From positions 1-42,441 of the forward strand of contig JADLCR010000090.1 of assembly GCA_020847095.1 (NCBI GenBank): a stretch of 42,441 bases of DNA, written 5' to 3'. The notes under the pieces are model-generated. The model did no database searches. It was given only the letters and a program-made list of their open reading frames with translations, and was not told the DNA's origin. The stretch is from Oligoflexia bacterium (GTDB lineage: Bacteria; Bdellovibrionota; Bdellovibrionia; JABDDW01). Shown here one piece after another: positions 677 through 27,643 of the stretch (the stretch's first letter is position 1; every line of letters starts with the position of its first letter). Position numbers and translations under genes: made by a program.

Positions 677-2584
677 TTGAACACTAATCAAGCTCCAAGA
701 TGGCATGTGAATCTAGCATACTTTGCCTCAGCTAAACATGCACGCTACGGCAAATTTCATCGTGCGCTTACGGCGCTCAACTCACTTAATGTTAGTCCCT
801 ATGTCACCGAAGAAGAACTCCGCACGGCTCGACTTCGGCCATCTGAAGCCACTAAATTGGGTATTATTTTTAGATCCCCTCATCCAATTAGAATTCCCAA
901 ATCGACCAGGAATTTCGATTTATTGAATCCCCGCAATCGGCAAATCCTGGACCCTATCGTTGACTTTGTCTCGCCACGATTTGGGCCGCTTAGTTACTTA
1001 TCAGAGTTGGTCAAATGTTCTAGCAGCGAAGCTGAATTAACGTACATTTCCACAACAAAGAGTTTGTTTATAATAAGCACTTTAGGCTCCCGCTTTAAGC
1101 TCCGACCGGGGCGCTGGATCGTACCTACTAAATATTGGCGAATTTCTTCTTTACTTCTCAAGAGATCTCGACATTGGAAATTCCTTTCTATTGACGAGTC
1201 TCGACAAATTCTGGTCAAGAATTTAATAATTAATCAAATCAAAAAAAGCTCGATCGCAAATTGGTATGATATTGGGTGTGGGACTGGACGGTTGGCGCTG
1301 TCTTTAGCGCCAAGCCTTAAGCATGTTCAGATAACTGGAGTTGATCCTCTGGCGCGGGCACGCCATAAATTTAAAAACCTAAGATTTATTTCAAGAAAGT
1401 TTCAAAATCTCGGTAAAATCTCTTCAAACTCACTAGTGACCAGCTTGGAGTGCATCGAACACCTGAACTCCCAAGATCTAAAGTTCTTTGAAAGACAGAT
1501 TTTTTCTACTTGGAGCCCTCGCGAAGTCGTAGTGACCACGCCGAACAAATCCATTAATTTAAGACCAAAACTAATGCCCGGGCTTGTGACGAGGGATTCC
1601 TTACGTCACCCAGATCATTGTTTCGAGTTTACATTTTCAGAGTTCCGAGCTTGGTCCGAAAGAATCAGCAAAAAATACCTATATTCAGTTTCATTCTCGG
1701 GCTTTGGCAATCATTTCGAGCCTTGGGGATTCCCCTCAAGCCTCGCCCACTTTAAAAATCTTGATACTGGTTTAGCTTCTTTAAACCAATCTCAGCGACT
1801 TGCAGTGCGCGATCAAATCTGGCGAATTTTAAAACGCTTTGGTCACAACGTACATTCCATTTACCTCAACGGAAGTCGCGTGAGGCAAGACTACATTCCC
1901 AGTAGCGACATCGACCTTACGGTCATTTTTAAAAAAAAGCCCCCCCACCTCGGTCGCCATGAGTTCAATAGGATTTCGAAATTTGGAATCGAAAAATATA
2001 AATGCCTAGTCGACACCTCCGGAATAACACTTTGGCAACTTCAGCGGTTTGGATTTCCCAATTTCTACTCTCAGTTTCAATTGCTGTTGGGACCCGAACT
2101 TAATTTTCGGATTATGGCCCCCGAAAAGAGCAGCTACGTTCGCCGCGCTGCTCGACACACAATCCAGTTATTGAAACAGCTCAATGGCAGTCATAATGTT
2201 TCTCAAACTGTTACTCCCCCAGATCCTAACGATCCGTTCTTGGGCTATGCCACTACTCCGATTATTACTGACAACGGGAAACCGCGATTCGGTTTTAAAG
2301 AACTTGATAACACGCTGGGAAGAATCGCGAATGTATTGATTGTTAAAAAATCGTCAATTCACTGTGCCACTCGCTTGCAACGAGCCCAAATGACATCCCG
2401 ACACGTGGGTCGGAAATGGGGACTGCTTTTAACTGAGTTTCATAGATTCGTTCGGAAGAGAAATTCGTACTTGATTCCGACCACTCAATATGAAATTGAC
2501 TTGATGAGAAAACTTTGTCGGAAGGCATTGGATTTTCAAAACTATTTTCTAAAGGAGATCCATCGTGAAGGTAAAAACATTTAA
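677..2584 (+). CDS. Fusion of Hen1-like methyltransferase and polymerase-beta-type nucleotidyltransferase
   Basis: This 635-residue protein has at least two catalytic domains. Residues about 170-350 form a SAM methyltransferase with motif I DIGCGTGRL (198-206). They also carry the signature residues of bacterial Hen1 3'-terminal RNA 2'-O-methyltransferase: ExxEH (E258, E261, H262), VTTPN (286-290) and RHPDHCFEF (310-318). In Hen1 the two Glu and two His bind the metal. Residues about 375-480 look like a minimal nucleotidyltransferase, with GS (399-400) and a later DID (411-413). The N-terminal 165 residues and the C-terminus are unassigned. The start is a TTG with GAGGA six bases upstream. 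The next gene starts inside its 3' end, so the two are probably translationally coupled. The domain calls rest on motifs only. RNA is the known Hen1 substrate, but the surface-product context leaves the substrate open. Confidence 0.75.
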   Translation: MNTNQAPRWHVNLAYFASAKHARYGKFHRALTALNSLNVSPYVTEEELRTARLRPSEATKLGIIFRSPHPIRIPKSTRNFDLLNPRNRQILDPIVDFVSPRFGPLSYLSELVKCSSSEAELTYISTTKSLFIISTLGSRFKLRPGRWIVPTKYWRISSLLLKRSRHWKFLSIDESRQILVKNLIINQIKKSSIANWYDIGCGTGRLALSLAPSLKHVQITGVDPLARARHKFKNLRFISRKFQNLGKISSNSLVTSLECIEHLNSQDLKFFERQIFSTWSPREVVVTTPNKSINLRPKLMPGLVTRDSLRHPDHCFEFTFSEFRAWSERISKKYLYSVSFSGFGNHFEPWGFPSSLAHFKNLDTGLASLNQSQRLAVRDQIWRILKRFGHNVHSIYLNGSRVRQDYIPSSDIDLTVIFKKKPPHLGRHEFNRISKFGIEKYKCLVDTSGITLWQLQRFGFPNFYSQFQLLLGPELNFRIMAPEKSSYVRRAARHTIQLLKQLNGSHNVSQTVTPPDPNDPFLGYATTPIITDNGKPRFGFKELDNTLGRIANVLIVKKSSIHCATRLQRAQMTSRHVGRKWGLLLTEFHRFVRKRNSYLIPTTQYEIDLMRKLCRKALDFQNYFLKEIHREGKNI

Positions 2585-3623
2585 CTCTATAGATGGTTGG
2601 CATAAACCCTGGGAAATTATTGATCAGCTCCTCAAACAATTTATCGTCAGCGAATGTCATCACCTACTTCGAGAACCGAAGTGCTCAGTTAAGCTCAAGA
2701 AGGCAACCCATATCGGTTTAGCGGGAGAGTTACTTAAACAAGTAAACGAATTGCGAGAAGAGCCGTTTTCAGCAAGTCGGAGAGTAAAAATTCCCAAAGC
2801 TATGGATTCTTGGTTAAGTGATCTCATCGAAAATTATCCCCCCATTGGCAGAGATCGCGGAATCACAGTTCTTAAATCCACCCAGAAGTTTTTTAGATCA
2901 TATTCTTCTAAATCAGTCACTCGCCCTTCGGTTCCGAAAACCCCTGCTCGCGAGAAGGTTCTCAGACCCTCAACACGACCAGGCGACAACTGTGAACCGT
3001 TGTCATCTCCACCCCTTAGATGGGTTCGCGGCTTTTTGCACAGCCTTTTTGTCGACGTAGAGCTAAGTGCTATGGAGCTCTCGGCGGCTGGCATTATCAT
3101 GGCCAAAGACACTGCTTATTTTAGTGAATTTGCTTGCGACTTCAGCCTGCACATTTGGGACGAGGGGCGCCATGCCGAAATTGCCCTTTACGGATTGCGA
3201 TTTTTGGGCGGAAAACTCGGCGATTACACCTACACGAATCACACGTGGAATAAGGTTAACCAATTCTCTGAACTCGTTGAGCGCATTATGGGCGAAAACG
3301 TAATCGAAGAAGGCAACGCTTCGGACCGAGCCATGGGTCAAATTAAAAATCTAAGATCCATGGGTTATCATCAGGCAGCAAATCTTTTGGAACACATCAA
3401 TGTCGATGAACTTCGTCACGCCCGTCTGGGCAATAAGTGGGTAAAGCGGATTCTTGAACAAAATGATAGACAATTTATCGACCTGTTCAAGAGAGTTAGC
3501 ACTAAAATCGGCCGACCACTCAAACACCAAATTTCGTGTTTTGAAAACCTCGATGCTCGCATGCGAGCGGGATTTGATCGTAATTTTTTAAAACAATTCG
3601 GATTAAGTGCCGCCGGTGGGTGA
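2565..3623 (+). CDS. Ferritin-like diiron protein of DUF455 type
   Basis: The C-terminal half (about 155-300) carries the pattern of DUF455, a ferritin-like four-helix family: ExSAMELSAAG (166-176), IWDEGRH (197-203), LGDYTYTNHTW (218-228), VIEEG (246-250) and NVDELRH (279-285). The paired Glu and ExxH-type residues are the expected ligands for two metal ions, so an oxidase or hydroxylase role is plausible. The first 150 residues are basic and not recognised. The GTG start has a strong AAGGAG eight bases upstream and overlaps the Hen1-like gene by 20 bases, so the two proteins are probably made together. Its 3' end overlaps, on the opposite strand, the last codons of the small peptide gene at 3603-3752. 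The family assignment is from memory of the motif pattern. Confidence 0.7.
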   Translation: MKVKTFNSIDGWHKPWEIIDQLLKQFIVSECHHLLREPKCSVKLKKATHIGLAGELLKQVNELREEPFSASRRVKIPKAMDSWLSDLIENYPPIGRDRGITVLKSTQKFFRSYSSKSVTRPSVPKTPAREKVLRPSTRPGDNCEPLSSPPLRWVRGFLHSLFVDVELSAMELSAAGIIMAKDTAYFSEFACDFSLHIWDEGRHAEIALYGLRFLGGKLGDYTYTNHTWNKVNQFSELVERIMGENVIEEGNASDRAMGQIKNLRSMGYHQAANLLEHINVDELRHARLGNKWVKRILEQNDRQFIDLFKRVSTKIGRPLKHQISCFENLDARMRAGFDRNFLKQFGLSAAGG

Positions 3624-3752
3624 GGCGTAAACAGGCAAAATGATTTTTTTCTTTTTTAGGCCACCAAAATAATATTTCGGCTTCGAAAGCTTCTTGCTAC
3701 TCGTCGTTGCGCGAGTTCGTGCTTGCGATTTTATTGAATTCTTTTTGACCAT
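3603..3752 (-). CDS. Small basic peptide B, putative precursor or substrate peptide (49 aa)
   Basis: This short ATG frame encodes 49 residues. The N-terminal half is rich in Lys, Arg, Ser and Thr; the C-terminal half reads KYYFGGLKKKKI, then ILPVYASPT, then GGT. The C-terminal 21-residue block matches that of peptide A just upstream at 18 positions, and 10 of those 18 codons differ only at silent positions. That is strong evidence that the protein sequence is selected. A weak GGA lies about ten bases before the ATG. There is no signal peptide and no Cys. Nearby genes for a PqqD-like protein, radical SAM proteins, an oxygenase and a CotH-like kinase suggest that the peptide is modified after translation; this is inference. 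I do not recognise the family. Confidence 0.72.
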   Translation of the reverse strand: MVKKNSIKSQARTRATTSSKKLSKPKYYFGGLKKKKIILPVYASPTGGT

Positions 3753-3786
3753 GACTTTTCTATCCAAAAGATTTGTGTTAAATTGC

Positions 3787-3933
3787 TCAAGTTCCCACTA
3801 CGGTGGGCGAAGCATAGACCGGCAATGCGATTTTCTTCTTCTTGAGTCTTCCAAAAAAATACTTACCCCTGACCGAGGTTTTCTTGGTCGATTTTGTCTT
3901 CTTTCGCGAAAAAACCCGACGATTCTTAGCCAC
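3787..3933 (-). CDS. Small basic peptide A, putative precursor or substrate peptide (48 aa)
   Basis: This frame encodes 48 residues from a GTG at 3933, with AAAGGG (complement of 3939-3944) about five bases upstream. An in-frame ATG at 3963 would give 58 residues but has a poorer ribosome site. The N-terminal half is Lys/Arg/Ser/Thr rich and the C-terminus reads KYFFGRLKKKKI, then ALPVYASPT, then VVGT. It is a tandem paralogue of peptide B, 34 bases downstream, so the two are probably co-transcribed. The peptide sits between the Hen1-like/ferritin-like operon and the beta-helix/CotH operon, divergent from the latter. Its length, duplication and conserved C-terminal block fit a RiPP-like precursor or a small modified structural peptide. 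No known leader motif is evident. Confidence 0.72.
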   Translation of the reverse strand: MAKNRRVFSRKKTKSTKKTSVRGKYFFGRLKKKKIALPVYASPTVVGT

Positions 3934-4066
3934 TGTTGCCCTTTCTTTACAGTGATAGCCCATATGTACAGCGTTACCCAGTGCGCCGCAACTGCAATTT
4001 CTGCTAGAGCAACGGGATAATTATGTTAAAGTTTATTGGTTTTGATTACCGGGAGGCATTGATATC

Positions 4067-5431
4067 TTGCTGAACCTTACATTATTTTCTTCTAAACCGC
4101 CTTTTGCGGTCATACTCCTTTCTAATTTATTGTTATTTGGGACCTTGGCCCAGGGCCAACCCGAAAATAGCACCCTATATGTCAGCCAATTGCTCGAACA
4201 GTCCTCAAATGCTCCTTTTAAGCTGTTTTTGGATCTAATTGCTGATGCTGAAAAGCCTATAGAAATTCAGACCATCGAGGTCACCCAGAATAGCTTGCAA
4301 CCATCTCAAATTCGCGCCTTACCCCCCCTTGACGGTCACTGTACGCTTGAAGATTCTTTAAAGGGGGAAAAACGAAATGTTTTCCGATGTACGAACCTAC
4401 TCGTACCGACGCAACTTCCCCAAATACCTAGCCAATTTAGAATGGTTCTAGAATCAAAACAACGCATGGATTTGATAAAAGTAAAAATTACTGCAGTTCT
4501 CGAGGGAAAGAGAGTGAATGTGCACAAGTCCCCACTGCGTGTAGCACTTGTTGAGATGAAATCCCTTTTTAATGAACTCAAACCTCTGATCAAAGGAAAC
4601 CTGGTGACCTTGAATCCTCGAGAGTATCTTTTGAGGCAGTCGCTTTATATTCCTCCTGGCTTTCGAGTTCGAGTTCTTGCCGGAACAACGCTCCGACTTA
4701 ACCCTGGAGTCTCCGTTGTTTCCAGAAGCCCCGTGGATTTTTTAGGGGAAGCCCATAATCCCATTAAGATCATCGGTTCAGATGCAAATCGTCCTTGGGG
4801 TAGTTTTGCCGTCGTAGCTCCCAAACAGGAAATGCAGGCGACGTATCTTACGGTTAGTGGCGGATCTCAAGCCTTAATTGAAGCGATGGAGTTCAAAGGG
4901 CAGATGAGTCTTCATCACCTCGATGTAAAACTCTCCCACTCCAGATTTGAGAACTCCCAGGGTGAGGACAGTCTAAATATTAAATTTTCTAAAATACGCC
5001 TTGAAAATGTTATGTTCGCAAATGCAAAAGGCGATTTATTTGATGGTGATCAGGTTATTGGCCAGATCACCAATTCTCACTTTAGTAATGCGGGCAATGA
5101 CGCCATTGATTTTTCACATTCGTTGGTTACCGTTCGAAACTCAACTGTTGAAAACGCGAAAGACAAATGCATCAGTGTTGGCGAAAGCACTCAATTGGTC
5201 GGAGATAACCTCCGGCTTAGAGGTTGCAGAACTGCATTGGCCAGCAAAGATGATTCAATTGTGAAATTGGGGAGCTCTCAAATCAATAACGCTGAAGTGG
5301 CCTTTGCGGGATTTCGAAAATTTGAGCGATTCAAGCGTGGTGGCACGATCTTTATAGACAATAAAATGAAACTCGAAAACGTTCAAAAAATGCAGCAGAT
5401 CGACTCCTACTCATTGGTCCGAAAGTTATGA
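4067..5431 (+). CDS. Secreted right-handed parallel beta-helix protein
   Basis: The protein begins with a signal peptide (hydrophobic VILLSNLLLFGTLAQG, about 17-32). From about residue 190 to 440 it shows the repeating pattern of a parallel beta-helix, with short strands containing NSHFSNAG, NSTVENAK and similar turns. The opening IPPGFRVRVLAGTTLRL is typical of proteins with a disorder-to-helix cap. No catalytic residues can be assigned. Its stop codon overlaps the ATG of the GDPD-CotH gene (ATGA), so the two are coupled. Beta-helix proteins are known to travel with CotH-like proteins in some bacteria, which supports a shared extracytoplasmic job. The start is TTG with GGGAGG ten bases upstream, slightly far, so the exact start is uncertain. 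Confidence 0.75.
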   Translation: MLNLTLFSSKPPFAVILLSNLLLFGTLAQGQPENSTLYVSQLLEQSSNAPFKLFLDLIADAEKPIEIQTIEVTQNSLQPSQIRALPPLDGHCTLEDSLKGEKRNVFRCTNLLVPTQLPQIPSQFRMVLESKQRMDLIKVKITAVLEGKRVNVHKSPLRVALVEMKSLFNELKPLIKGNLVTLNPREYLLRQSLYIPPGFRVRVLAGTTLRLNPGVSVVSRSPVDFLGEAHNPIKIIGSDANRPWGSFAVVAPKQEMQATYLTVSGGSQALIEAMEFKGQMSLHHLDVKLSHSRFENSQGEDSLNIKFSKIRLENVMFANAKGDLFDGDQVIGQITNSHFSNAGNDAIDFSHSLVTVRNSTVENAKDKCISVGESTQLVGDNLRLRGCRTALASKDDSIVKLGSSQINNAEVAFAGFRKFERFKRGGTIFIDNKMKLENVQKMQQIDSYSLVRKL

Positions 5432-7476
5432 ATTTTGTGTTTTGGTTACTTATAATCTTTACCGATGGCCGCTCCGCAAACGCTTATACTCTGACATCGC
5501 AAAAGGGGTATACGTTTTTGTCTCAGTCTTTTGAACAGTGTCAGGCTAGAAATTTAAAAGGTCCCTCTGAATACCCATTCGACAACACTATAGAGTCTAT
5601 TCAAACAGCTTTCGATTTAGGCGCAGACTTGGTCGAAATTGACATTCAAAGAACCAAAGACAACGTTTTAGTCTTGTTTCACGATTGGAATCTTGATTGC
5701 CGCACTCAACTATCAGGAACTATCGAGGATTATACTTGGAGTGAATTGAAAAAAGTAGATTTCGCCTATTACTTGTCATTCGATAATGGCATCACCTTTC
5801 CGCTCAGAGGAAAGGGCCTTGGTAAAATTGTCAAGTTTTCTGAAGTACTAAAAAAGTTTCCTAACAAAGCCTTTCATCTGAACCCAAGGGGTAAAAAAAG
5901 AGTTCTACTGGGAGACTTATTGGTCAACGAATTGAGAAGGCATCCTGGCCTTCCGTTTCAGAAGTTTGCATTTTGGGGAAATAGGGAGATTTTTCTGGCC
6001 ATCAAAAATGAATTTCCAGAATTTGGTGATTTCATTCCCAATGGTCCGCAGGTGTCTCGTTGCGTGCAAGATTATTCGATCTGGGGATGGACCGGTTGGT
6101 TTCCTCCAAGTTGCAGAAACCGAGGCATAAGCATAGACGCAAGATCGCACCGAGTACGATGGATCTGGGGCTGGCCTGAGAAGTTTATTGAACGCGCCCA
6201 CTCTTACGGTTCAAAGGTTCATGCAATTTACGTTGAAGACAAAGATACCTTTCAATCCGTCGCGAATACTGAAATCGATTCGATAATAACCAGAGATATC
6301 GGTCTATTGTCAAAATTGCGTGATCAGCAGGAGCTTATCAGCACAATCGACATCAAACTCACTTCAGAAAATGAGACTAAGCTCAGAAACTTGATTGCTC
6401 AGACCCGACAGCGCAACAAGCTTGACAAAACTACAAAAGAAAAGATTCCTGCCCGAATTCGCATAAGCAACGTGGAATACTCGGGCACACTTAGGCTCAG
6501 GGGCGATCTTCCGCGCCACTGGGATGAGAAACAACCTTCGCTCAGAGTCAAGATCAACGGACCTTATTATCCTTGGGGCATTCGAACTTTTGATTTTATG
6601 CTCACAAGCGACAAGATCTACGAGCTTGAGCAAACGGCCTACGTCATGGCCAGAAGATTGGGTCTCTTTATACCATCGAGTGGATTTTCCCGTTTGACTC
6701 TTAACCTTCGAGATCTCGGAATGTACTTTTGGATTGAGAGATTTGGTAACAATATGAGAAAGCGCCATCAACGCGATTCTGGCTCTTTTATTTATGAAAA
6801 GGATGTTTGGCTTGCTTCCATCACTCGCCCGGACAACTCAGTTTATCAAAATACCTTCCTCAAAGGGACTGACTCACTAAACCCGATTCGACTATTTCCG
6901 AATATTTATAGTGTAAAATCTGAAACCAAGAATCTTGAATCTCTTTCCATGCAGCATTTTTCGAAATTTCTAGACCTTTTAAGGAGTCCAAAAACAGATG
7001 TGGCGAAATTATCCAATGTTCTAGATGTCGAGAAGTTTGCCAAATGGAATGCACTTCTGGTTGTCTTCGGCTCAGTACACGCCGCGCTGGGCGATAATCT
7101 GAGATGGTATTTGGACCATACCACCGGCCTGTTGGAACCGATCGCGTACGATCTTTTACCTCAAAGAATTCTAGCAGCTGGCGAAGCACCAGACGCTCGG
7201 CTATTGAGAAATTGTCCGTTTTCTAGGAAAATTCTCTCCTACCCGTCGATAAAGCGTCTTAGAGATGATTACTTGGGCCGGCTGGTGCAAGAGTCACAAT
7301 TCGATCCGCTGGCTATATCCGACCGGACTTTTGAAAATATATCTGGTCATTTGTCGGAAGAGCCGTTTGAAACACTTTCTGGAGATGGCCTTTCAAAACG
7401 AAGCCAGAGGCGCTCAGATCTCATTCACAACTTGAGTTTAATTAGAAAATGGTTAGCAAAAAACAAGAACAATTGA
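5428..7476 (+). CDS. Secreted GDPD-like domain fused to CotH-like kinase domain
   Basis: After a signal peptide (about 1-19), residues 30-310 resemble a glycerophosphodiester phosphodiesterase: DNT (52-54), VEID (69-72), FHDW (84-87) and an ITRD near the end. The usual first catalytic His in HRG is replaced (A40-R41), so this domain may be a pseudo-enzyme. Residues about 330-680 match CotH, the spore-coat-type kinase fold: LRLRGDLPRHW, KPY/YYPWG, then GDN (555-557) and PIAYD (571-575), which correspond to its conserved catalytic Asp/Asn region. CotH proteins phosphorylate Ser in basic, Ser-rich secreted proteins. It overlaps the beta-helix gene upstream by four bases and the PqqD-like gene downstream by 28. 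Its substrate here is unknown; the Ser/Thr/Lys-rich peptides at 3.6-3.9 kb are candidates only. Confidence 0.8.
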   Translation: MNFVFWLLIIFTDGRSANAYTLTSQKGYTFLSQSFEQCQARNLKGPSEYPFDNTIESIQTAFDLGADLVEIDIQRTKDNVLVLFHDWNLDCRTQLSGTIEDYTWSELKKVDFAYYLSFDNGITFPLRGKGLGKIVKFSEVLKKFPNKAFHLNPRGKKRVLLGDLLVNELRRHPGLPFQKFAFWGNREIFLAIKNEFPEFGDFIPNGPQVSRCVQDYSIWGWTGWFPPSCRNRGISIDARSHRVRWIWGWPEKFIERAHSYGSKVHAIYVEDKDTFQSVANTEIDSIITRDIGLLSKLRDQQELISTIDIKLTSENETKLRNLIAQTRQRNKLDKTTKEKIPARIRISNVEYSGTLRLRGDLPRHWDEKQPSLRVKINGPYYPWGIRTFDFMLTSDKIYELEQTAYVMARRLGLFIPSSGFSRLTLNLRDLGMYFWIERFGNNMRKRHQRDSGSFIYEKDVWLASITRPDNSVYQNTFLKGTDSLNPIRLFPNIYSVKSETKNLESLSMQHFSKFLDLLRSPKTDVAKLSNVLDVEKFAKWNALLVVFGSVHAALGDNLRWYLDHTTGLLEPIAYDLLPQRILAAGEAPDARLLRNCPFSRKILSYPSIKRLRDDYLGRLVQESQFDPLAISDRTFENISGHLSEEPFETLSGDGLSKRSQRRSDLIHNLSLIRKWLAKNKNN

Positions 7477-7760
7477 CATGCAAACAGATCATACCGATAC
7501 GAGCGCCGGACGCAATTACTCGTCGCCACGCAACAGGCGTCCTGAATGTTTTTCGTATTTCAAAGCAAGACGTCGTTTATGACCTGGATGGCGTTGCGGC
7601 CCAAGTATGGCTCAGAATTGATGGGAGAACAACGGCTGAGGAAATTGTTTCAATGCTCCTGAAAAAATATTATGTTTCAAGATCTAGACTATCAAAAGAT
7701 ATCACTCGACTGCTTCTTGAGCTGAAAGTTAGTCGCCTCATCACTTTAAAAATCACCTGA
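7449..7760 (+). CDS. PqqD-like protein (RiPP recognition element)
   Basis: This 103-residue protein carries the PqqD family pattern: DLDGVAAQVWLRIDGRTTAE (45-64) followed by EIVSMLLKKYYVS and a final LLLELKVSRLI helix and strand. PqqD-like winged-helix domains bind the leader of a peptide precursor and hand it to a radical SAM or other modifying enzyme. This is the best local evidence that a ribosomal peptide is modified by this island. It starts within the last codons of the CotH gene, so it is made in the same operon. A TTG at 7473 is an alternative start. There is no strong ribosome site, consistent with coupling. Confidence 0.85.
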   Translation: MVSKKQEQLTCKQIIPIRAPDAITRRHATGVLNVFRISKQDVVYDLDGVAAQVWLRIDGRTTAEEIVSMLLKKYYVSRSRLSKDITRLLLELKVSRLITLKIT

Positions 7761-8835
7761 GAACCTCAGAAGATTTTTTTTCGAGGTAATGAAGCAACAA
7801 AGAAGTGTATTCCATGCCGGTCGGCATTTGCTCGCGCTCGTGCTCTACCTCTTCACCAAAATAGAAAACGCCCTGCCCCGGCGTTAAAATGATCCGTTCT
7901 TCACCCATAATTAGAGGCCAATTCTGAGCCGATTGCTCGCTTGGCTTGCGGAACGATTGGTCTAACATTACTGATGAACTAAATCGACACTGACGTCGAT
8001 CAAGATGTCTTCTCAAAACTGCCAAATTGGCGTACCTCACCCAATAATTATAAGACGCTTTCAGAGGACGCCCAAAAACTTGGCTCGTAAACTTACATAG
8101 CCCTTGGTGCAGCCGATTAGCCTCTGTCTCGGTGTGCTCCCAAAACCGATGCGCCACCATATCATCGCCGTAAACCGCAAGACCCCTCGTAATTCGTTCA
8201 GATAAATATTTTGAATAGCTCGAAGCCACGATGCGGGGAAGTGCCCATGGAATTTTTAAGTAACGCTTTTTCCTGAGTTCTTTTCGCCACGAAACAATAA
8301 GTGTCCTTCGGTATTTTGCGCTTACCCAAGCCTTAGGCACGAGCACTCGGCTGTGAAAAAGGTACTCATGGTTAGTTTTGAGATCCTTTAGCGGCTTTTT
8401 CAAGCTCTGAATTTGCGCCCTAGAATCGTGCGACATTTCGACTGAAATTTGCAGTCCGGTCATTGGGTCAGTCAAAATGCAGTTCTTTTGGATAGGCCGA
8501 AGCGACGGATTTAAAATAAAGGGTCCATCTGGCAACTGAAGGTCATGGATTTTTAAACCCATAAACCAATCCAAACTTAACTTAAAACGAGGTCGACTTT
8601 CGACCTCTTTGGAATCTATTAGTACTCCAATAGACTTCAAATTTTTCAAATCTTTTGAACTGAATATTTCTTCGATGTTCGAGTTGGCAGAATTTTGCAC
8701 CCCAAGAAGCTTCAAAAAAACATCTGGGGTGACTTGCGTTTTTAATCGTTCAACGGCCTTCCCAGGAACCATTACCCAAAACCCTTTTTGGTCACGAGCT
8801 AACTTTACTTCAGGATTCAAAAAATAGGTTTTCAA
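7753..8835 (-). CDS. Putative 2OG-Fe(II) oxygenase with unassigned N-terminal domain
   Basis: The C-terminal third has the spacing of a 2-oxoglutarate/iron oxygenase: RRHLDRRQCRFSSSVMLD with HxD at H277-D279, then NWP, ILTPGQGVFYFGEEVEHERE with H332, and a final GMEYTSLLLHY. H277, D279 and H332 would bind iron, and R334 may bind the co-substrate. Residues 1-80 look like a small alpha/beta domain ending in LKNLKSIGVLI, which could be a PqqD-like winged helix; this is tentative. The TTG start overlaps the stop of the HExxH gene, so translation is coupled. The gene is the last of a four-gene minus operon (11971 to 7753) and converges on the PqqD-like gene with an eight-base overlap. It probably hydroxylates or desaturates the island's product. 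Confidence 0.6.
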   Translation of the reverse strand: MKTYFLNPEVKLARDQKGFWVMVPGKAVERLKTQVTPDVFLKLLGVQNSANSNIEEIFSSKDLKNLKSIGVLIDSKEVESRPRFKLSLDWFMGLKIHDLQLPDGPFILNPSLRPIQKNCILTDPMTGLQISVEMSHDSRAQIQSLKKPLKDLKTNHEYLFHSRVLVPKAWVSAKYRRTLIVSWRKELRKKRYLKIPWALPRIVASSYSKYLSERITRGLAVYGDDMVAHRFWEHTETEANRLHQGLCKFTSQVFGRPLKASYNYWVRYANLAVLRRHLDRRQCRFSSSVMLDQSFRKPSEQSAQNWPLIMGEERIILTPGQGVFYFGEEVEHEREQMPTGMEYTSLLLHYLEKKSSEVLR

Positions 8836-9743
8836 TGTCTTAAACGAGGCTCAACAGAGGCTCGATTCCTCGTAGATGTTTGGAATATCGACTCTAAACT
8901 ATTAAACACCTTCTTTAGAAAATGAACGTCGCAAAGCGGTATTATCTCACTCGGTTTGAAAGCCAAGACCGATTGCATTGCACGCGCTTTCATCCATGTC
9001 GTATAGGCAGTTTTGCTAAACATTGGATTTAGATCCAAAGGAGTAAAACGACCCAACTTAACCCCATTTTTCAGTAAAAGCGACCGGCCTCTGGCGTTGT
9101 CGATTCCCCTCACCTGCAGGTAACCGAAGATAACTTGCGTGCGGAAAAAGTCGAACCTCTTACTCTTAGCCAGGGGCCCTGTGTCCGCGCTGGTTCGATA
9201 AACGACCCCACACACATTAAATGGCAAACCACCCTTTCCTAACTCGCGGCCCAATAACACATCCCGATAAAGCACTAAGCTTTCTTGAAATGCATATCGC
9301 TCAAGGCCGCACTCAACCCAGGGTAAGCTCTTGTTGATAATAAAATGTGACAACTCATGAAAAATGCTGTTGGAATATTCTAAAACCATTCTCATGGTCC
9401 ATATCCACTCATCACTGTTCTTAGTACTCAATCTCCAAAGTAATTCGTCGGCAATCGGGTTATAGTAAATTTCATGATTTTTGAGGTCGAACTCTTCAAG
9501 CGATCTCCCCACCGTGATAAACTTCGGCACTAACCGAGCCCCCAAGACATGAGCTAAAACTCTGTTTTGCCGGTAGAGTCGAGAGATATTATACAAAGAT
9601 TTATCAAATAATAATCCCTCTGCATACAGCGGGTCAGGAATTGAGAGACGAGATTCTCGTCGCAATAGTTCGGCAAGTTTTTTCTGGAAACTGGGATCTG
9701 CGCCACTTCTCAAGTCTTGAGTTGAGTACTGGGTATTCGACAT
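8832..9743 (-). CDS. HExxH-containing protein, putative zinc metallopeptidase
   Basis: The 303-residue protein contains FHELSHFI (H129, E130, H133) within a longer helix, followed by ECGLERYAFQE, which could provide the third ligand. This is the zincin signature but I do not recognise the family. No signal peptide is visible, so it probably acts in the cytoplasm. The start at 9743 is chosen because GAGGA lies eight bases upstream and it leaves only a four-base gap to the previous stop; a longer frame upstream would overlap. It lies between the unknown gene at 9748 and the oxygenase. In this context a role in cutting a modified peptide is possible but unproved. The motif could also be structural. 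Confidence 0.6.
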   Translation of the reverse strand: MSNTQYSTQDLRSGADPSFQKKLAELLRRESRLSIPDPLYAEGLLFDKSLYNISRLYRQNRVLAHVLGARLVPKFITVGRSLEEFDLKNHEIYYNPIADELLWRLSTKNSDEWIWTMRMVLEYSNSIFHELSHFIINKSLPWVECGLERYAFQESLVLYRDVLLGRELGKGGLPFNVCGVVYRTSADTGPLAKSKRFDFFRTQVIFGYLQVRGIDNARGRSLLLKNGVKLGRFTPLDLNPMFSKTAYTTWMKARAMQSVLAFKPSEIIPLCDVHFLKKVFNSLESIFQTSTRNRASVEPRLRH

Positions 9744-9747
9744 TTTT

Positions 9748-10713
9748 TTAATCCTCAATAAAATCCAACCACTCTTGAGCCTTATCAAGTTCTACAATCA
9801 CTTTCTCTTTTTGAGACAACCCAGACATTTGCAAATCCCTTCTAAAATTAAATCGATAAAAAGCATCTTGTTCTCTTTGAGTTTTGCGGGATTTACGGTC
9901 ATTTGGTAACTGAGGTCTGAGTTCAAAGCCGTGATGCTCCGAAATCAAATAACGTCGCCATCTTGTTTTCGCAGCTGTCGCTACCCTATTCTTTTTGAAT
10001 AAATGGCCGCCTGCCTGAAGAGCGTAGTGAACCAAATCGCTGTCCGAGATTGCCCTATGGTCATTCAAGTCCAAAATTTGCGCTTCCGAAAAACCCTTTG
10101 CCCGATAAAACTCTTCGTAAGTGAGAAACTTTAAGGGTCTGTTAATCGCTCCAAAGAACATCTGAAAAAAATGGGCAATTGCAAACCCCTTGTTCTCAAG
10201 TTTTTTGCTGTTATTCACAATTGGAAAGTATGCACCCAATGGCTGATTTGACTTATTCAATTCTTTCAAGTGAGGAACACACCAGCGTGGTAGCGTTGAA
10301 CGTTCGCTCACCTGCGCTAAGATCAAACTCCATCGTGGTTGTCCTAACACATCCCTGATCCGTGAATAAAGTCGGTACATTCCAAGATGGCGACGCCATG
10401 AGCCCGGCACTACGTGGGCTACTTTTTCGTGTATATACAATTTGAGTTTCAGATTTATGGGTTCCGGAAATCTTTTAAAAAAAAGAGTCAGCCCAAGTGC
10501 GCCGTCCCTAACAATGATGGGCTCATTCAAGGGGAGCGCCCTAAAATTCTTTAAATCAGCCAACAACACCGAGGTGGGACGCTCGTATCTCCAACGACTT
10601 GAGGGGCTAAACATATGAAAGTATTCCCCCCCCGACTGCTTTGACCAGTCGTCTACCAGCTGCCTTTTCACGCGACTGACAGTCTGTAAATCGTTAGTTA
10701 AAATACGGCGCAT
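9748..10713 (-). CDS. Unknown protein paired with a glycosyltransferase (family shared with 24217-25344)
   Basis: I do not recognise this 321-residue protein. It is basic and soluble, with several conserved-looking blocks: LNEPIIVRDGALGLTLFF (residues 61-78), INLKLKLYIHEKVAHVVPGSWRR (about 85-107) and SEHHGFELRP. The IH...VP..WR block also occurs in the protein at 24217-25344, and both genes directly follow, and overlap, a similar glycosyltransferase. The two are likely distant paralogues working with their glycosyltransferases. It overlaps the upstream gene by 20 bases and sits just before the HExxH gene. The ATG has GGAAG close upstream. Confidence 0.6.
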   Translation of the reverse strand: MRRILTNDLQTVSRVKRQLVDDWSKQSGGEYFHMFSPSSRWRYERPTSVLLADLKNFRALPLNEPIIVRDGALGLTLFFKRFPEPINLKLKLYIHEKVAHVVPGSWRRHLGMYRLYSRIRDVLGQPRWSLILAQVSERSTLPRWCVPHLKELNKSNQPLGAYFPIVNNSKKLENKGFAIAHFFQMFFGAINRPLKFLTYEEFYRAKGFSEAQILDLNDHRAISDSDLVHYALQAGGHLFKKNRVATAAKTRWRRYLISEHHGFELRPQLPNDRKSRKTQREQDAFYRFNFRRDLQMSGLSQKEKVIVELDKAQEWLDFIED

Positions 10714-11971
10714 AAACTTCCATGTAGTCCTTCATATTGTGCACATCATCTCCGAACGCCTCGGGCGATCCAAGGCCCTTCGAAAGCAAAACGGCCCTAT
10801 TTTTAAAACCCTCAAACAGTCGGATCCGGGATAGGTTGGCTAATTCGGAATCTAGCAAAGCCGACAGAGATTTAACAGAGAACTTTTGTTCAAAGTGAGA
10901 ACGAATAAGACCTCTTAGAAGTTGAGGATTCTCACGATTTTTCAAAACCGCTTGAAAATGGTTTTGCAGATCTAAAGTATTAATAAAAGCTCCAAGAGGA
11001 CTTGGGCGAACCTCAACAAATCGAACCCCCGGCCCCCTAAATCCCGAATAACCCGCCCAATTCGTCAGAATAGCTGGTACCCCTTGGCAAAGCGCTTCAG
11101 CTGGAGCCATTCCAAAGTCTTCATCATGAAACGTGCTCAAACTGACAAAGCAATCTGTTTCTTTGTACACCCGAGTCAGATCGCGACGATTTAAATGTCC
11201 AAGAAAAATAATGGAGGCTTTAAGCTCTGAAGATAATGAATCTAAAAACTCATTTATTAGTTCAAAATATATTCCGTTATTGTGACGAAAACCGAAATGC
11301 GCGCTAAGTATCTGATCAAATTCTCCAGCGATAAGTAATCTGACATTATTGTGTTTAACTCGAATCTTTAGAAATTCTTTGATCAAAAGAAGAACGTTTT
11401 TTTGTACACTAATTCGGCCGGCATACGCGAAAACAAACTCTTCTCGCCCCAATCTTAACTGATCTCTCACTGAAGTTTGACCTTCGGCTATCTCATCTTC
11501 TTTACAGGCGCTAATATGCACCGGAAATGGAAAGGTTCCCACGAACTGTGTTCCCTTGGAAATCAGGTTAGAAACAAATTTGGACTGCTTAGGTGACGAG
11601 CAAAGAAATCGCAAGCGTACATTAACCAAAAGATCTTGAATATCTAACCAACGCCACAGGTTCGTGGAGAAATTCCCATACACATGCACTAAGACCGGAG
11701 GCAAACACCGTGACCCATATGCCTCAATCAGGGCAACCAATAGAGCCGGAGGAGGTGGTTGATGATCTAAAAAAACAATTACACCGGGATTAAACTTAAA
11801 AATAGATCTCGCCTGCTCCCAAAGGTCGCGCTTTGACATTTCCAAGGTGTAATTAGTGCTCTTTATAGTAATCTGAGGCAGGTCTCTGTAGCACTTTTCA
11901 AGAGCGGGCAATATGAATTTGCAACTTACCCAAGTGGAAGGTTCAAAGGATTTAATTAAAGCAACCTTCAA
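10694..11971 (-). CDS. Glycosyltransferase, GT-B fold (GT1/GT4-like)
   Basis: The N-terminal strand KVALIKSFEPS, the central VFAYAGRISVQKN and the EDFGMAPAE segment (the EX7E motif of GT4-like retaining enzymes) identify a nucleotide-sugar glycosyltransferase. I place the start at a TTG at 11971, because AAAGG lies nine bases upstream and the first strand then begins at the N-terminus. A frame extending to 12031 adds 20 residues without a ribosome site. The enzyme resembles the one at 25310-26611 along its length (for example HVYGNF/HVYGDF and GYSGF). Both are followed by an overlapping gene of one unknown family. It heads the minus operon that ends with the oxygenase. The acceptor is unknown. 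Confidence 0.85.
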   Translation of the reverse strand: MKVALIKSFEPSTWVSCKFILPALEKCYRDLPQITIKSTNYTLEMSKRDLWEQARSIFKFNPGVIVFLDHQPPPPALLVALIEAYGSRCLPPVLVHVYGNFSTNLWRWLDIQDLLVNVRLRFLCSSPKQSKFVSNLISKGTQFVGTFPFPVHISACKEDEIAEGQTSVRDQLRLGREEFVFAYAGRISVQKNVLLLIKEFLKIRVKHNNVRLLIAGEFDQILSAHFGFRHNNGIYFELINEFLDSLSSELKASIIFLGHLNRRDLTRVYKETDCFVSLSTFHDEDFGMAPAEALCQGVPAILTNWAGYSGFRGPGVRFVEVRPSPLGAFINTLDLQNHFQAVLKNRENPQLLRGLIRSHFEQKFSVKSLSALLDSELANLSRIRLFEGFKNRAVLLSKGLGSPEAFGDDVHNMKDYMEVYAPYFN

Positions 11972-12059
11972 AATCGAATTCCTTTCGCTAAGCCGATTAC
12001 TCAATTTGCTGAGGTACCGCATTTGGATCAAGCGCCATACCTTGGCACCCCAGACAAGG

Positions 12060-12143: not shown

Positions 12144-12596
12144 CTAAAAAAATCCCCTTCTCAAATTTTGGTTCAACCAATTTCTAAAAATCAATTTGAG
12201 ACGGGTGGCTAAGGGAATTTTATGACTGACTACTTTTCCCAATACGTGACCCTCAGGTATTGGTAAATCCTCACCAGAGTGCAAATTCCGGGTAACTAAA
12301 ATTTTTTGATCCTCTTTTTTGAAATAACGATTGATGTGCCAAATGTAATGACAAATCAGAATTTGTCGGCTCTTACACCAAAAAACGATAATGTCAAATT
12401 GAGATAACTCGAGAGTCGTAGTTCGCACCATCACATTTGTATTAGTGCCAATAAGAGGCTCCATAGAGCCCGAGGCAACGTTAAAACAAGTTAATTTGTT
12501 TTCCGTTAATTGACTCTTAAGCGCCAAAAACTTTTCGTGATCAACTTTTTCAAATTTAGGATCTTTATTAAACGTTAAATTTTCAGGCGTTTTCAT
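12144..12596 (-). CDS. S24/S26 (signal-peptidase-like) peptidase, no membrane anchor
   Basis: Residues 40-50 contain ASGSMEPLIG, the catalytic Ser motif of signal peptidase I-type and LexA-like peptidases (S44). QFDIIVFW, ICHYIWHINR and ILVTRNLHSGED follow, with HVLGKVVSHKI at the end. The second catalytic residue looks like a His (H83 or H87) rather than the bacterial Lys, as in the archaeal/eukaryotic S26B type. The protein is 150 residues and lacks an N-terminal membrane segment, unusual for a signal peptidase. Its ATG overlaps the 3' end of the radical SAM gene, so both are made together. S26-like peptidases occur in some peptide-modification clusters, so removal of a leader is a reasonable guess. 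Confidence 0.7.
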   Translation of the reverse strand: MKTPENLTFNKDPKFEKVDHEKFLALKSQLTENKLTCFNVASGSMEPLIGTNTNVMVRTTTLELSQFDIIVFWCKSRQILICHYIWHINRYFKKEDQKILVTRNLHSGEDLPIPEGHVLGKVVSHKIPLATRLKLIFRNWLNQNLRRGFF

Positions 12597-13674
12597 ACCA
12601 AAACTTTATCTGATTTAGCATTCCCACAAAATGACCATAATTTTCGCGAACCCACCAGAACTTAGATTGACTCCGGTCGACCGTAATCGATCGCCTTAAG
12701 TAGTCGAGCACTTCTTTGATCTCGTCTTTTGGCATAAACTTGAAGCTCACTTCTTGCGGCCAAATCACGGTGTTTATTCCCATGTAAACCTGTCGATCAT
12801 TACAGAATTCGTAAATCTCTGGGAGAGTCTTCCAGTTTTCTCTCATTGGACAAACAGCCAGCGACATGCCTTTGTTATTGCTACGAGTAAGTTCGATAAA
12901 AAACTCCAGATTAGTTCTCATAAGGTCGTAACTTGCGTTCCGACGTATCTTTTCGTAGGTCGATTTATCTAAGGAATCGCATGAGACGGTAATCGCAGGT
13001 TTAAGCTTGTAAAGCATTTCGCGTGTCTTATCGTTTAGAATTGTTCCGTTGGTCGTAATGACTGTTTCAATTCTAGGATTTATATTGATAATGAGGTCCC
13101 AGATTTTATAGTAAAGAGGATTCAAAAAAGGCTCGCCGCCTAAAAACTTAGCTGCGGCCAAATGGGCAATAAAGGGCTCAATTTGTTCAATGAATGCGTC
13201 ATCATAAGGATTTTGCAATGGCTCCAGCCTCTCGCGGTTTCGGCGAATTGAAGAAGAAAAGTACCCATTACACATAAGGCACTCGAGATTACATACGTTG
13301 CTGGTCTCAAATTCAAAAATTTGAGGCATTAAAGAATTCTTAGTAATCTTGCCAATCCCGTACTTGTCATAATCACGAGCATGTACCCCCTGAAAGTTTT
13401 CTGCCTCTAACTGTCTTTCACAAAGCCAACAGCCTTTGGATAAATTGCCCTCGGTCATGGCCTCCTGAAGTTCGGTGCATTTTGAGCCATTCCAGATTTC
13501 ACTTAGAGTATTCTTGGGGTAGGTGCCCAGTTTATAACTTCTGTTAAAACAACAGGCTGTCACATTGCCATTTTGATCAAAATTCAAATTCACAGATGGC
13601 GCATGACAGATGGCACTGAGTGCCGAAGGGTTTCGTGTTGAATCATATTTTTTTAGAAGCCGAGAAGGCAGCAT
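12583..13674 (-). CDS. Radical SAM protein with N-terminal Cys-rich segment
   Basis: The cluster-binding CxxxCxxC is C128, C132, C135 (SNVCNLECLMCNG), followed by FLGGEPFL and VITTNGT. An N-terminal SPASM/twitch-like segment precedes the core, with C23, C41-C42, C82 and C85, and a LGTYPKNTLSEIW stretch typical of such domains. This layout is found in enzymes that act on peptides or on complex small molecules. It is a clear paralogue of the protein at 22271-23656, sharing SNVCNLECLMCNG and the IRRxR context. It overlaps the S24/S26-like peptidase gene downstream. Its ATG follows a TAGCAT box with TCGACA 17 bases upstream and no ribosome site, so the message may be leaderless. The reaction is unknown. 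Confidence 0.85.
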   Translation of the reverse strand: MLPSRLLKKYDSTRNPSALSAICHAPSVNLNFDQNGNVTACCFNRSYKLGTYPKNTLSEIWNGSKCTELQEAMTEGNLSKGCWLCERQLEAENFQGVHARDYDKYGIGKITKNSLMPQIFEFETSNVCNLECLMCNGYFSSSIRRNRERLEPLQNPYDDAFIEQIEPFIAHLAAAKFLGGEPFLNPLYYKIWDLIININPRIETVITTNGTILNDKTREMLYKLKPAITVSCDSLDKSTYEKIRRNASYDLMRTNLEFFIELTRSNNKGMSLAVCPMRENWKTLPEIYEFCNDRQVYMGINTVIWPQEVSFKFMPKDEIKEVLDYLRRSITVDRSQSKFWWVRENYGHFVGMLNQIKFWYENA

Positions 13675-20811: not shown

Positions 20812-22266
20812 ATGATTTCGTTTTTTAAGAGAAATCTAATTAGAATTTACTTAATTGAGATCTTACTTTGTATGGTCATTTTGTCATACGCAGCCTACAC
20901 ACATCGGCCACTAGTCTTAGAACCTACGGCCAGTTGGTTTTACAAGGTTCTTGATAGGTCGATTTTAGTTTGGGATAAAAGTTGCCACCGAATCACTGAC
21001 TCACTTTTGCAAATACCTGCGATAGCTTCTATCAAGTTCTTGCCAAAAGAGATTTCACGAAACTTTGGGTTAAGAGCCCTTGAATTCGCTTATTCGCTGC
21101 ACCCGATATTGAGTCTGTTAATTTGCGCTGTACTCTTGCGGCGATCAAGAAAAACGGCATACTTACTATTTCCTATTTTTTCCTTTGTGCTGGCCACTGG
21201 CCCGTCGCTTGCCTTTTCTGAAAGTGTCGTCAACACTTCTATTTCAATCTTTTGGCCGCTATTTTTTTTGCTGATTGTGCGTAAGCCGAACACCATGAAA
21301 AGTGTTCCGCTAATTGCGGGCCTAATTTTAGGTCAAGCTTTTGGTTATGAAGCGGACATTCTTCTGCTATCGCTCTGTGCCGCTGTTTGTATCGATCGTC
21401 TAAAGACCCACAAAGACAATGCGGATTTGCTCATATTATTCGGATGTGTGGGGGCTATTTGGACTCAATTGACCCATGTTCTCTGGAAACCTGCAGGCTG
21501 GACTTCGGATTATTGGGCCTCATTAAATCAAGGTCCTTTAGGTTTTAATTTTCACGCTGTTGTCTTTGTCGTGGCGCTGATTGTCATTCCATTGACTATT
21601 CATTGTGCTCCCTTTTTTAATCAAAAACTTACCGGCCGAATTCGCTACCGATTGTTTATCACTGTAGCCTTAATCAACGGTTTGGTGTTCTTACTGAGAG
21701 TTTATTTTGATTCAAGCCTTTCAAACTTCTGGAATGCGTATCACTCTCGCGCATACAGCACACCAATGGCATTCATTCTAGCAGGAGCGTGTTTTTTGTC
21801 ATTGAAGAATCACTGGAAGCCAGAATTCAATTCAGGTCCCTGGCGAGCAGCGACCTTAGCTGGTCCATTTGTGATTGCCACCTGGATGGTCTACGACGTG
21901 ACGCTGACCCAGCGCTGGATCGACGGCGTAAAAACTTTAGCCCAACAATTAAAAGATCAAAACGGTTGCATCGTCTTACCCAAGCCGAAACCCGGTAGAC
22001 TTGCTCAAAACGCTTACAATTTAAGTGCTGTTACATGGCAAAGTTTGCTCATTTTCAACGACTCTTGGACAGTTCAAAAGGTTGCGTTTTTTCAGGATCC
22101 TAAAAATTCCGAAGCCAACCCCTGTCAGGTTGTTTCCCGACAGCCCCATACTCCCTCAATTGGATTTGACACATTTAATTCGAAGATTTCCCCTTGGATG
22201 GTCTTTCCGTTGGGTCGAGACACGAATTTTGACTGGACGAAATTAATGAATTTACCTTCTAATTAG
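20812..22266 (+). CDS. Multi-pass membrane protein with paralogous C-terminal domain
   Basis: About eight to ten hydrophobic segments occupy residues 10-380 (for example LIEILLCMVILSYAAY, ILSLLICAVLL, IFWPLFFLLIV, VVFVVALIVIPLTI). A soluble tail of about 100 residues follows (from NGCIVLPKPKPG). The tail resembles that of the partial protein at the left edge of the window. I do not recognise the family; its layout would fit a membrane glycosyltransferase or polymerase, but no motif supports this. It lies nine bases after the sulfotransferase and four bases before a radical SAM gene, so it shares their operon. Confidence 0.75.
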   Translation: MISFFKRNLIRIYLIEILLCMVILSYAAYTHRPLVLEPTASWFYKVLDRSILVWDKSCHRITDSLLQIPAIASIKFLPKEISRNFGLRALEFAYSLHPILSLLICAVLLRRSRKTAYLLFPIFSFVLATGPSLAFSESVVNTSISIFWPLFFLLIVRKPNTMKSVPLIAGLILGQAFGYEADILLLSLCAAVCIDRLKTHKDNADLLILFGCVGAIWTQLTHVLWKPAGWTSDYWASLNQGPLGFNFHAVVFVVALIVIPLTIHCAPFFNQKLTGRIRYRLFITVALINGLVFLLRVYFDSSLSNFWNAYHSRAYSTPMAFILAGACFLSLKNHWKPEFNSGPWRAATLAGPFVIATWMVYDVTLTQRWIDGVKTLAQQLKDQNGCIVLPKPKPGRLAQNAYNLSAVTWQSLLIFNDSWTVQKVAFFQDPKNSEANPCQVVSRQPHTPSIGFDTFNSKISPWMVFPLGRDTNFDWTKLMNLPSN

Positions 22267-23676: not shown

Positions 23677-24294
23677 ATGGACCAAAAAGTAAAGGGGCTC
23701 CAAAAGAAAATTAGTCAATGGTCTCTAGAGGAGGATGTGTGTCGTGCGGCAAATTTATTTGGCCCTCTTTATTATGAGAATAACTTGAAGGAGTGGGTCT
23801 ACTATCAAGAGAAGAACATCTCCAGATTATCAAGAATAATCGATGAATACGGGTGGCCCGGAATCAGCTTGTTGGGCGTTGAAGCCGCTGAGATGACAGC
23901 GAATCTTGTAATGAATTGCGTTTCTCAGCCACGGTTTATGAGGCGCTGTCTACCTTTAGTCGAGCAGGCCTGTCGGTTTGGCGATGCCTACGGCGAATGG
24001 TTCGTAAAAATATACGACACCATTATGGTTTTTGAAGGTAAACCTCAGGTGTTTGGCACTCAGCTGACTTGGTCTAAGCATGGAGTGCTGGTGCCATTTA
24101 AAATAATCGATGAAGCAAACGTTGACAGGCGACGAAGTATCTTCACTTTAGAATCATTGGAGCGTTATTTAGAAAAAGCTAATAAAAAAGCAAAAGAACA
24201 AAATCTCATACAGCCATCATGTGCTGAGAGATACCTCACTTATCTTGGCCTCTGGGCTACTGACAGAGGCTGGAGTCGACTCAGCAACCAATAA
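23677..24294 (+). CDS. DUF6624 family protein
   Basis: Residues 60-165 carry the pattern of DUF6624: YGWPGISLLGVEAAEMTANL, then QPRFMRRCLPLVEQA, GDAYGEWFVKIYD, then GKPQVFGTQLTW and VDRRRS. The function of this family is unknown to me. GAAAGG lies seven bases before the ATG, a good ribosome site. It is the last gene of the plus operon that starts at 20008. Its last 78 bases overlap the opposite-strand gene at 24217, an unusually long convergent overlap. Confidence 0.75.
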   Translation: MDQKVKGLQKKISQWSLEEDVCRAANLFGPLYYENNLKEWVYYQEKNISRLSRIIDEYGWPGISLLGVEAAEMTANLVMNCVSQPRFMRRCLPLVEQACRFGDAYGEWFVKIYDTIMVFEGKPQVFGTQLTWSKHGVLVPFKIIDEANVDRRRSIFTLESLERYLEKANKKAKEQNLIQPSCAERYLTYLGLWATDRGWSRLSNQ

Positions 24295-25344
24295 ATGTTT
24301 GCACCACGAAGTGAACCATCGAGGCCACGGAAACGATCTATTAGATGACGACGCAAGTGCCGAATAGTAATTCTTAGCACTTTCTCTAGATTCAATGATC
24401 GCGCCGTCTGTTAGATAATCAATGAACTTCTTTTCAAATCTCGTTGATATTCCGCAGGAAAGATTAGGGTAAAAGGGGTAAATTGTTTCGTAATGATGTG
24501 TCCGTTGCTTATTTTTCTCTTCCAAGATCAGAATACTTCCCCCTCGACTTAAAGCAATGCGCATTGAGTGCGAATCTACATAAAGATGCTTCTCGTTAAA
24601 TTCATGAACCCATGAAGTGCGAAAGTGACTTGCCTCCAAAAGTTGTTTATGTTCGAGAATGTTGATGTCCGCGCCCAAATACCGACAGAGAGTTATCATA
24701 AATTTATTATAAAATGCGGGCCCCTCCGAGTGCTCGCTGTCTTCATATCGAGCAGGTAAAAACGCATTGAGGCGCATTTTTCTAAGCCCCCTCTTTCCGC
24801 CTACTTTTCTTAAGATCATATCTAGATCTTTTTCGAGATGCTCAAGTGAGCACACCGAAGGCATTATCTGGCCAAGCAACAACAACTCATCGCGGTCCTT
24901 GGCGGATGTTTCGAGGATTTTTTCACTTTCTTCTGGAAGAAAATCAAACAATGCCGCCTGCGCCCTCCATGCCTCAGGTACATACTCTTCAAACTGGCTA
25001 TGAATGAGAATTTGGGCTTTAAAATTTCCCGGTTCGGGATTGCTAATAAAAAACCAAATAAGTGGCACGAGCCCATCACGTATTAGCCAAACATTTCTTG
25101 TCAAACTCGTGGCAAAATGCGGCAGATCGAGAAGAAAGATAGGATGAAGAGGTGCTACATAATTGTCAACAGCTGGCCACAGTCGATCAAAAAACGCCTG
25201 TATATCGGGGGGGCGTGAAAAAACATGGGCCGGTTTACGGTGCCTGGCCATTTCTCGCCAATTTGCAATACCATAGGGTGCGTAAAGATAATTCGGATTT
25301 TTGACTTTCTCAGTCATGGACATAATGTCGATAGGTTTTTTCAT
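24217..25344 (-). CDS. Unknown protein paired with a glycosyltransferase (family shared with 9748-10713)
   Basis: I do not recognise this 376-residue protein. Blocks include PHFATSLTRNVWLIRDGLVP, EPGNFKAQILIH and EYVPEAWRAQA. The IH...VP..WR block is shared with 9748-10713, which likewise follows a GT-B glycosyltransferase. The start is taken at 25344 (ATG, GGGA seven bases upstream), giving a 35-base overlap with the glycosyltransferase; an upstream start at 25392 is possible. The C-terminus overlaps the DUF6624 gene on the other strand by 78 bases. It probably acts with the glycosyltransferase. Confidence 0.6.
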   Translation of the reverse strand: MKKPIDIMSMTEKVKNPNYLYAPYGIANWREMARHRKPAHVFSRPPDIQAFFDRLWPAVDNYVAPLHPIFLLDLPHFATSLTRNVWLIRDGLVPLIWFFISNPEPGNFKAQILIHSQFEEYVPEAWRAQAALFDFLPEESEKILETSAKDRDELLLLGQIMPSVCSLEHLEKDLDMILRKVGGKRGLRKMRLNAFLPARYEDSEHSEGPAFYNKFMITLCRYLGADINILEHKQLLEASHFRTSWVHEFNEKHLYVDSHSMRIALSRGGSILILEEKNKQRTHHYETIYPFYPNLSCGISTRFEKKFIDYLTDGAIIESRESAKNYYSALASSSNRSFPWPRWFTSWCKHLLVAESTPASVSSPEAKISEVSLST

Positions 25345-27584: not shown

Positions 27585-27643
27585 TTAATAGAGACTACAT
27601 CAAAGCCCTGGATTTTCACATGGGTTGGTTTTAAAGTTTGTAC

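Follow-up and report, generated by a model that had tools for sequence, protein, structure and literature searches.

Tandem small basic peptides point to a rare small-protein family, tentatively read as substrates of an accessory pathway

The window – a whole contig (C90) of 42,441 bases from a draft genome of 2.7 Mb – encodes two short minus-strand peptides that, judged by sequence comparison, belong to a real but rare small-protein family with no description so far. We tentatively favour, at somewhat less than even probability, the reading that these are precursor-type peptides serving as substrates in a rare accessory biosynthetic pathway. This substrate reading accounts best for their size, basic variable tail, conserved PVY block, rarity, tandem copies, and overlap with an orphan gene in related genomes.

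The two genes, designated A and B, are arranged in tandem, with a gap of 34 bases between the end of B and the start of A:

Positions 3787..3933, minus strand: peptide B, the upstream copy, 48 aa, GTG start, translation VAKNRRVFSRKKTKSTKKTSVRGKYFFGRLKKKKIALPVYASPTVVGT*
Positions 3603..3752, minus strand: peptide A, the downstream copy, 49 aa, ATG start, translation MVKKNSIKSQARTRATTSSKKLSKPKYYFGGLKKKKIILPVYASPTGGT*
Positions 3802..3864, minus strand: conserved block of peptide B, KYFFGRLKKKKIALPVYASPT
Positions 3615..3677, minus strand: conserved block of peptide A, KYYFGGLKKKKIILPVYASPT

An earlier sequence-only reading had described two minus-strand frames of 49 and 48 codons sharing a block identical at 18 of 21 positions, and retranslation reproduced this exactly. 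Neither peptide has an acidic residue: peptide B contains 11 K and 5 R (pI 11.9) and peptide A 11 K and 2 R (pI 10.8). Alignments bear out the earlier description of the N-terminal halves as basic, Ser/Thr-rich and diverged; the tails of both peptides are basic, rich in Ser, Thr, and Lys, and variable, and the C-terminal block is conserved. We saw no cysteine, no obvious cleavage site, and no repeats within either peptide. A third copy was not found in the genome, where a weak match on contig C92 contains a stop.

Codon-by-codon comparison of the two blocks argues that the peptides are genuine. Different, silent codons are used at 10 of the 18 identical residues, and 12 of the 16 nucleotide differences across the 63-nt block fall at codon position 3. 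By the Nei-Gojobori method, pS is 0.81 (saturated) and dN is 0.098. Four of the other five frames, namely the two remaining sense frames and two on the antisense strand, show predominantly replacement differences; the third antisense frame has eight silent and seven replacement differences (partly conservative), but an in-frame stop interrupts it in both copies. When 16 differences were placed at random in the block, 18 of 21 residues remained identical in 0 of 20,000 trials. The pattern therefore reflects neither chance nor a recent DNA duplication. Saturated synonymous sites and a dN of about 0.10 thus indicate that peptides A and B are translated and under purifying selection at the protein level, and the pair appears to be an old duplication retained by that selection. 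The earlier claim that ten silent codon differences mark protein-level selection is therefore upheld by the codon counts and substitution rates and by the relatives in other genomes (G330 and G321). Short translated ORFs under protein-level selection are also what is asked of RiPP-type peptides, and A and B are of this kind.

To define the distribution of the family, we searched the whole phylum (369 genomes) with a two-sequence profile and then with a three-sequence profile to which the G330 peptide had been added. The first search identified a relative at G330:C374:3759-3875 (E 8.9e-6, 369 genomes; sequence MKKKQKKNTNKNKSKNNYYFGSLKKEKIKDTPVYGWPGP), and the second a 63-aa relative at G321:C459 (E 1.1e-4; C-terminal end YNFGRITKEKMKDTPVYGWPGP) that is backed by a gene arrangement matching that of G330. 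In 50,000 shuffles, no permuted G330 peptide reached the native score against the window profile, compared with 32 of 50,000 for the G321 peptide; the G321 relationship therefore depends mainly on its link to G330. Profile-profile comparison of the window pair with the G330/G321 pair gave an E of 3.8e-6 (probability 87%). G330 and G321 represent two genera of a family other than that of the window genome. The common signature is Y-x-F-G-x-[LI]-x-K-[KE]-K-[IM]-x(1,2)-P-V-Y-[AG]-x-P, and the residues invariant across the four peptides (peptide A numbering) are Y27, F29, G30, K34, K36, P40, V41, Y42, P45, and G48, along with M1 and T16. These independent relatives confirm the block.

The family was detected in the window genome, G330, and G321, that is, in 3 of 369 genomes. 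The peptide was not found in two other genomes of the window's family/order or elsewhere in its class (144 genomes), where matches with E values of 0.01-0.05 are chance frames, and a four-sequence profile applied to the relatives' class (58 genomes) yielded no further convincing member. The peptide profile matched no plasmid, phage, or viral contig, and broader scans of genome contigs returned nothing bar one chance match inside a reverse-transcriptase-like protein of Flavobacterium. A weak match in G052 (YYFGGLRK) was also rejected, since it is read antisense to a gene for a PLP-type enzyme. Searches of Pfam, NCBIfam, PHROGs, PADLOC, PDB, and Rfam gave no match to the peptides above threshold, in keeping with the earlier statement that the block falls in no described family; Rfam also offers no match for a non-coding RNA reading of the region. 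No anti-phage defence match was obtained for the peptides, the neighbouring DUF455 protein, or the partner protein of about 300 aa described below, and among open-licence papers none describing this family was found by title or abstract.

Across the window and relatives' peptides the pI is 10.2-11.9, with 12-19 Lys+Arg in 39-63 aa and few or no acidic residues. Such short peptides with variable, disordered-looking tails could instead be small nucleic-acid- or ribosome-binding proteins, in which the tail binds RNA or DNA, the block docks on a protein, and no modification takes place. This is unlikely, if still worth weighing: the peptides occur in so few genomes, their gene overlaps a rare accessory gene in both G330 and G321, and they match no described nucleic-acid-binding family. 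Their patchy distribution is more in keeping with an accessory pathway than with a housekeeping function.

The accessory gene in question provides the one gene link seen in the relatives. In both G330 and G321 it encodes a protein of about 300 aa (38% identical between the two genomes), and its start shares 20 bases with the 3' end of the peptide gene, and a squalene-cyclase-like toroid gene (39% identical at the protein level) lies about 1.3 and 3.1 kb from the peptide gene in the two relatives. A glycosyltransferase-like gene flanks both loci: in G321 it is of the PMT type, and in G330 it is a related fragment where the contig ends. Among the 369 genomes, the approximately 300-aa protein is present in exactly G330 and G321, as is the toroid, and the window genome has neither. 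The peptide, approximately 300-aa, and toroid genes thus co-occur strictly within the family of G330 and G321, as expected of one accessory locus. Searches assigned no family or function to the approximately 300-aa protein; a guess by eye that it is alpha-beta-beta prenyltransferase-like found no support against one such sequence. Among plasmids the toroid has a single relative, from Deinococcus, whose context is unrelated.

Two features limit how these loci are to be read. G330 and G321 are almost identical over about 30 bases of the overlap, and these bases also encode the start of the next gene and probably its ribosome-binding site, so the identity of KDTPVYGWPGP in the two relatives is not a clean sign of selection on the peptide; this complication is absent from the window pair. 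In addition, the relatives' sequences are short draft-genome contigs (5.1 and 8.6 kb) that on inspection carry transposase-like genes, so wrong binning is possible.

Overlap of the peptide gene with the approximately 300-aa gene is an arrangement typical of a substrate, or a subunit, with its partner. The 20-base overlap in both relatives would serve equally well for a subunit pair, in which the peptide is an accessory adaptor whose block binds and activates the neighbouring enzyme without being its substrate. We consider such a role rather improbable, given that the tandem copies in the window differ in their tails and lack an obvious partner there, and that the partner differs between lineages.

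The window itself presents a different setting, with peptides A and B alone on the minus strand between two unrelated plus-strand operons. The genes discussed below are:

Positions 677..2584, plus strand: fusion of a Hen1-like methyltransferase with a nucleotidyltransferase domain; the gene overlaps that of the DUF455 protein
Positions 2565..3623, plus strand: DUF455 protein (PF04305), extended by about 110 residues at the N-terminus; convergent, its 3' end sharing 21 bases with the end of the peptide A gene; listed for context, with a putative link to the peptides
Positions 4067..5431, plus strand: beta-helix protein, hydrophobic at its N-terminus; the gene points away from the peptide genes
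Positions 5428..7476, plus strand: GDPD-CotH fusion protein, starting 1.5 kb from the peptides
Positions 7449..7760, plus strand: PqqD-like protein (PF05402, E 5e-12), 3.5 kb from the peptides
Positions 12583..13674, minus strand: radical SAM/SPASM protein of the twitch type; the window has three radical SAM/SPASM proteins in all

The beta-helix, GDPD-CotH, and PqqD-like genes form one plus-strand operon. Farther along are glycosyltransferases, the three radical SAM/SPASM proteins, and a sulfotransferase-like protein, and the window also contains sulfate-activation genes and transporters (names by inspection of the translations). DUF455 was rejected as a fixed partner: other genomes of the class contain only distant paralogues of it (25-31% identity), and the surroundings of the 19 that were fetched showed no peptide motif.

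The sequence-only reading had taken the peptides to be substrates of the enzymes around them. Their status as genuine, conserved peptides overlapping the approximately 300-aa gene in relatives favours the substrate part of that proposal; the tie to the window's PqqD, radical SAM, and CotH genes is one of proximity only and is not supported. Co-occurrence of the block with these three genes, which would have been expected in relatives, was not seen by inspection of the 5.1- and 8.6-kb contigs, a weak negative at those lengths. Genome G139 contains a clear relative of the window's beta-helix/CotH/GDPD module, and no peptide motif was present in the 19-kb stretch around it (L036) or the adjoining 15-kb stretch (L037); CotH is therefore not tied to the peptide.

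This bears on a specific alternative, suggested by analogy, in which the nearby GDPD-CotH protein would phosphorylate Ser/Thr residues of the tails. CotH phosphorylates Ser/Lys-rich repeats of CotB and CotG in Bacillus, and its targets are Ser/Lys-rich disordered regions (PMC7821199). The window peptides resemble these spore coat proteins in having a basic Ser/Thr/Lys-rich region and a CotH-domain gene nearby. They are, however, far shorter, they are without the direct repeats of CotB/CotG, and their conserved part lies elsewhere, the supposed target tail being what has diverged. The window CotH protein is moreover fused to GDPD and looks exported (hydrophobic N-terminus, by eye), whereas the peptides have no signal; the peptides form no conserved cluster with cotH, the gene is absent from the relatives' contigs, and its module persists in G139 without a recognisable peptide. 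We therefore regard the peptides as improbable CotH acceptors.

Export of the peptides themselves is about as doubtful. Strongly cationic sequences in tandem copies, with ABC transporters encoded at 27638-29189 and 30793-32496 of the window, could suggest mature antimicrobial or signalling peptides that act after export and undergo no enzymatic modification. Yet no signal sequence, double-glycine leader, or Cys pattern was seen in them, and the transporters resemble a polysaccharide exporter and an MsbA-like flippase.

Several other features of these regions are recorded as observations in their own right. The Hen1-like RNA methyltransferase-nucleotidyltransferase fusion (677-2584, plus), which overlaps the DUF455 gene, is unusual. 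In L036 of G139, DUF4956, beta-helix, probable VTC-like, CotH, and GDPD genes form one run (3896-8453), and the window's beta-helix and GDPD-CotH fusion are of the same kind. A pair consisting of a glycosyltransferase and a protein of no matching Pfam family is duplicated at 9748-12031 and 24217-26611 (minus; mutual E 1e-44 and 3e-10, respectively), and two apparently membrane-bound hypothetical proteins at 75-650 and 20812-22266 (plus) are homologous to each other (E about 1e-16). The minus-strand gene at 7753-8835 encodes an orphan protein of 360 aa. Over its last ~160 residues this protein is similar to the C-terminal end of an Eleftheria terrae protein that is annotated as a sulfotransferase and encoded in a region with other hydroxylase genes; the orphan possibly contains an oxygenase domain, and a single-sequence structure prediction was uninformative (pLDDT 35). 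The adjacent orphan at 8832-9788 (minus; 318 aa) has a zinc-peptidase-like HELSH motif and no family match.

Returning to the substrate reading, peptides A and B would be small, cytoplasmic, precursor-type substrates of a rare accessory biosynthetic pathway. The C-terminal ~22 residues (Y-x-FG-x-L-x-K-K-x-K-I-x-P-V-Y-x-x-P) would be the part recognised, and probably modified, by a partner enzyme, with the invariant PVY tyrosine as the likeliest site and the basic Ser/Thr/Lys-rich N-terminal tail free to vary. The partner in G330 and G321 would most likely be the orphan protein of about 300 aa encoded by the overlapping gene, which we infer to act on the peptide. In the window genome, where this partner and the toroid are absent, the sole gene link from the relatives does not hold; a regional enzyme may have replaced the partner, for example the DUF455 protein or else the PqqD/radical SAM set. 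In favour of the substrate reading, the region holds unusual modification enzymes (PqqD-like, radical SAM/SPASM, GDPD-CotH, sulfate activation, glycosyltransferases). Against it, the peptides stand apart from the neighbouring operons, they have no cysteine and no obvious cleavage site, and their layout, conserved at the C-terminus and variable at the N-terminus, inverts the common leader-core order.

Compared with known RiPP precursors, the peptides are likewise short ORFs, overlapping a specialised gene in the two relatives, and PqqD-like and radical SAM genes are present in the window. They differ in the alignments by C-terminal conservation and N-terminal variability instead of the usual leader/core layout; in addition, no curated precursor model matched, and the partner genes vary between lineages. 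Membership of the RiPPs is accordingly not established. Some precursors, such as that of bottromycin, carry a follower peptide, in which a C-terminal recognition part can accompany a variable N-terminal part. A precursor of this type would explain the layout seen here by analogy only, as no sequence similarity to it was noted and no related enzymes were identified. A more specific proposal – a new class of modified peptides whose Y-x-FG...PVY block is altered by the approximately 300-aa enzyme family, with the toroid as second enzyme and the window as an instance of the same kind of substrate served by different enzymes – is speculative and on the unlikely side.

If the peptides are substrates, they would point to a peptide-modifying pathway, so far undescribed, that is present in two distant lineages of one phylum, and the approximately 300-aa and toroid orphan families would gain a testable substrate. 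The common signature could then be used for genome mining, as current models miss it. If they are not substrates, they would still represent a real orphan small-protein family, one that annotation may overlook given the size of its members and the GTG start of one copy.
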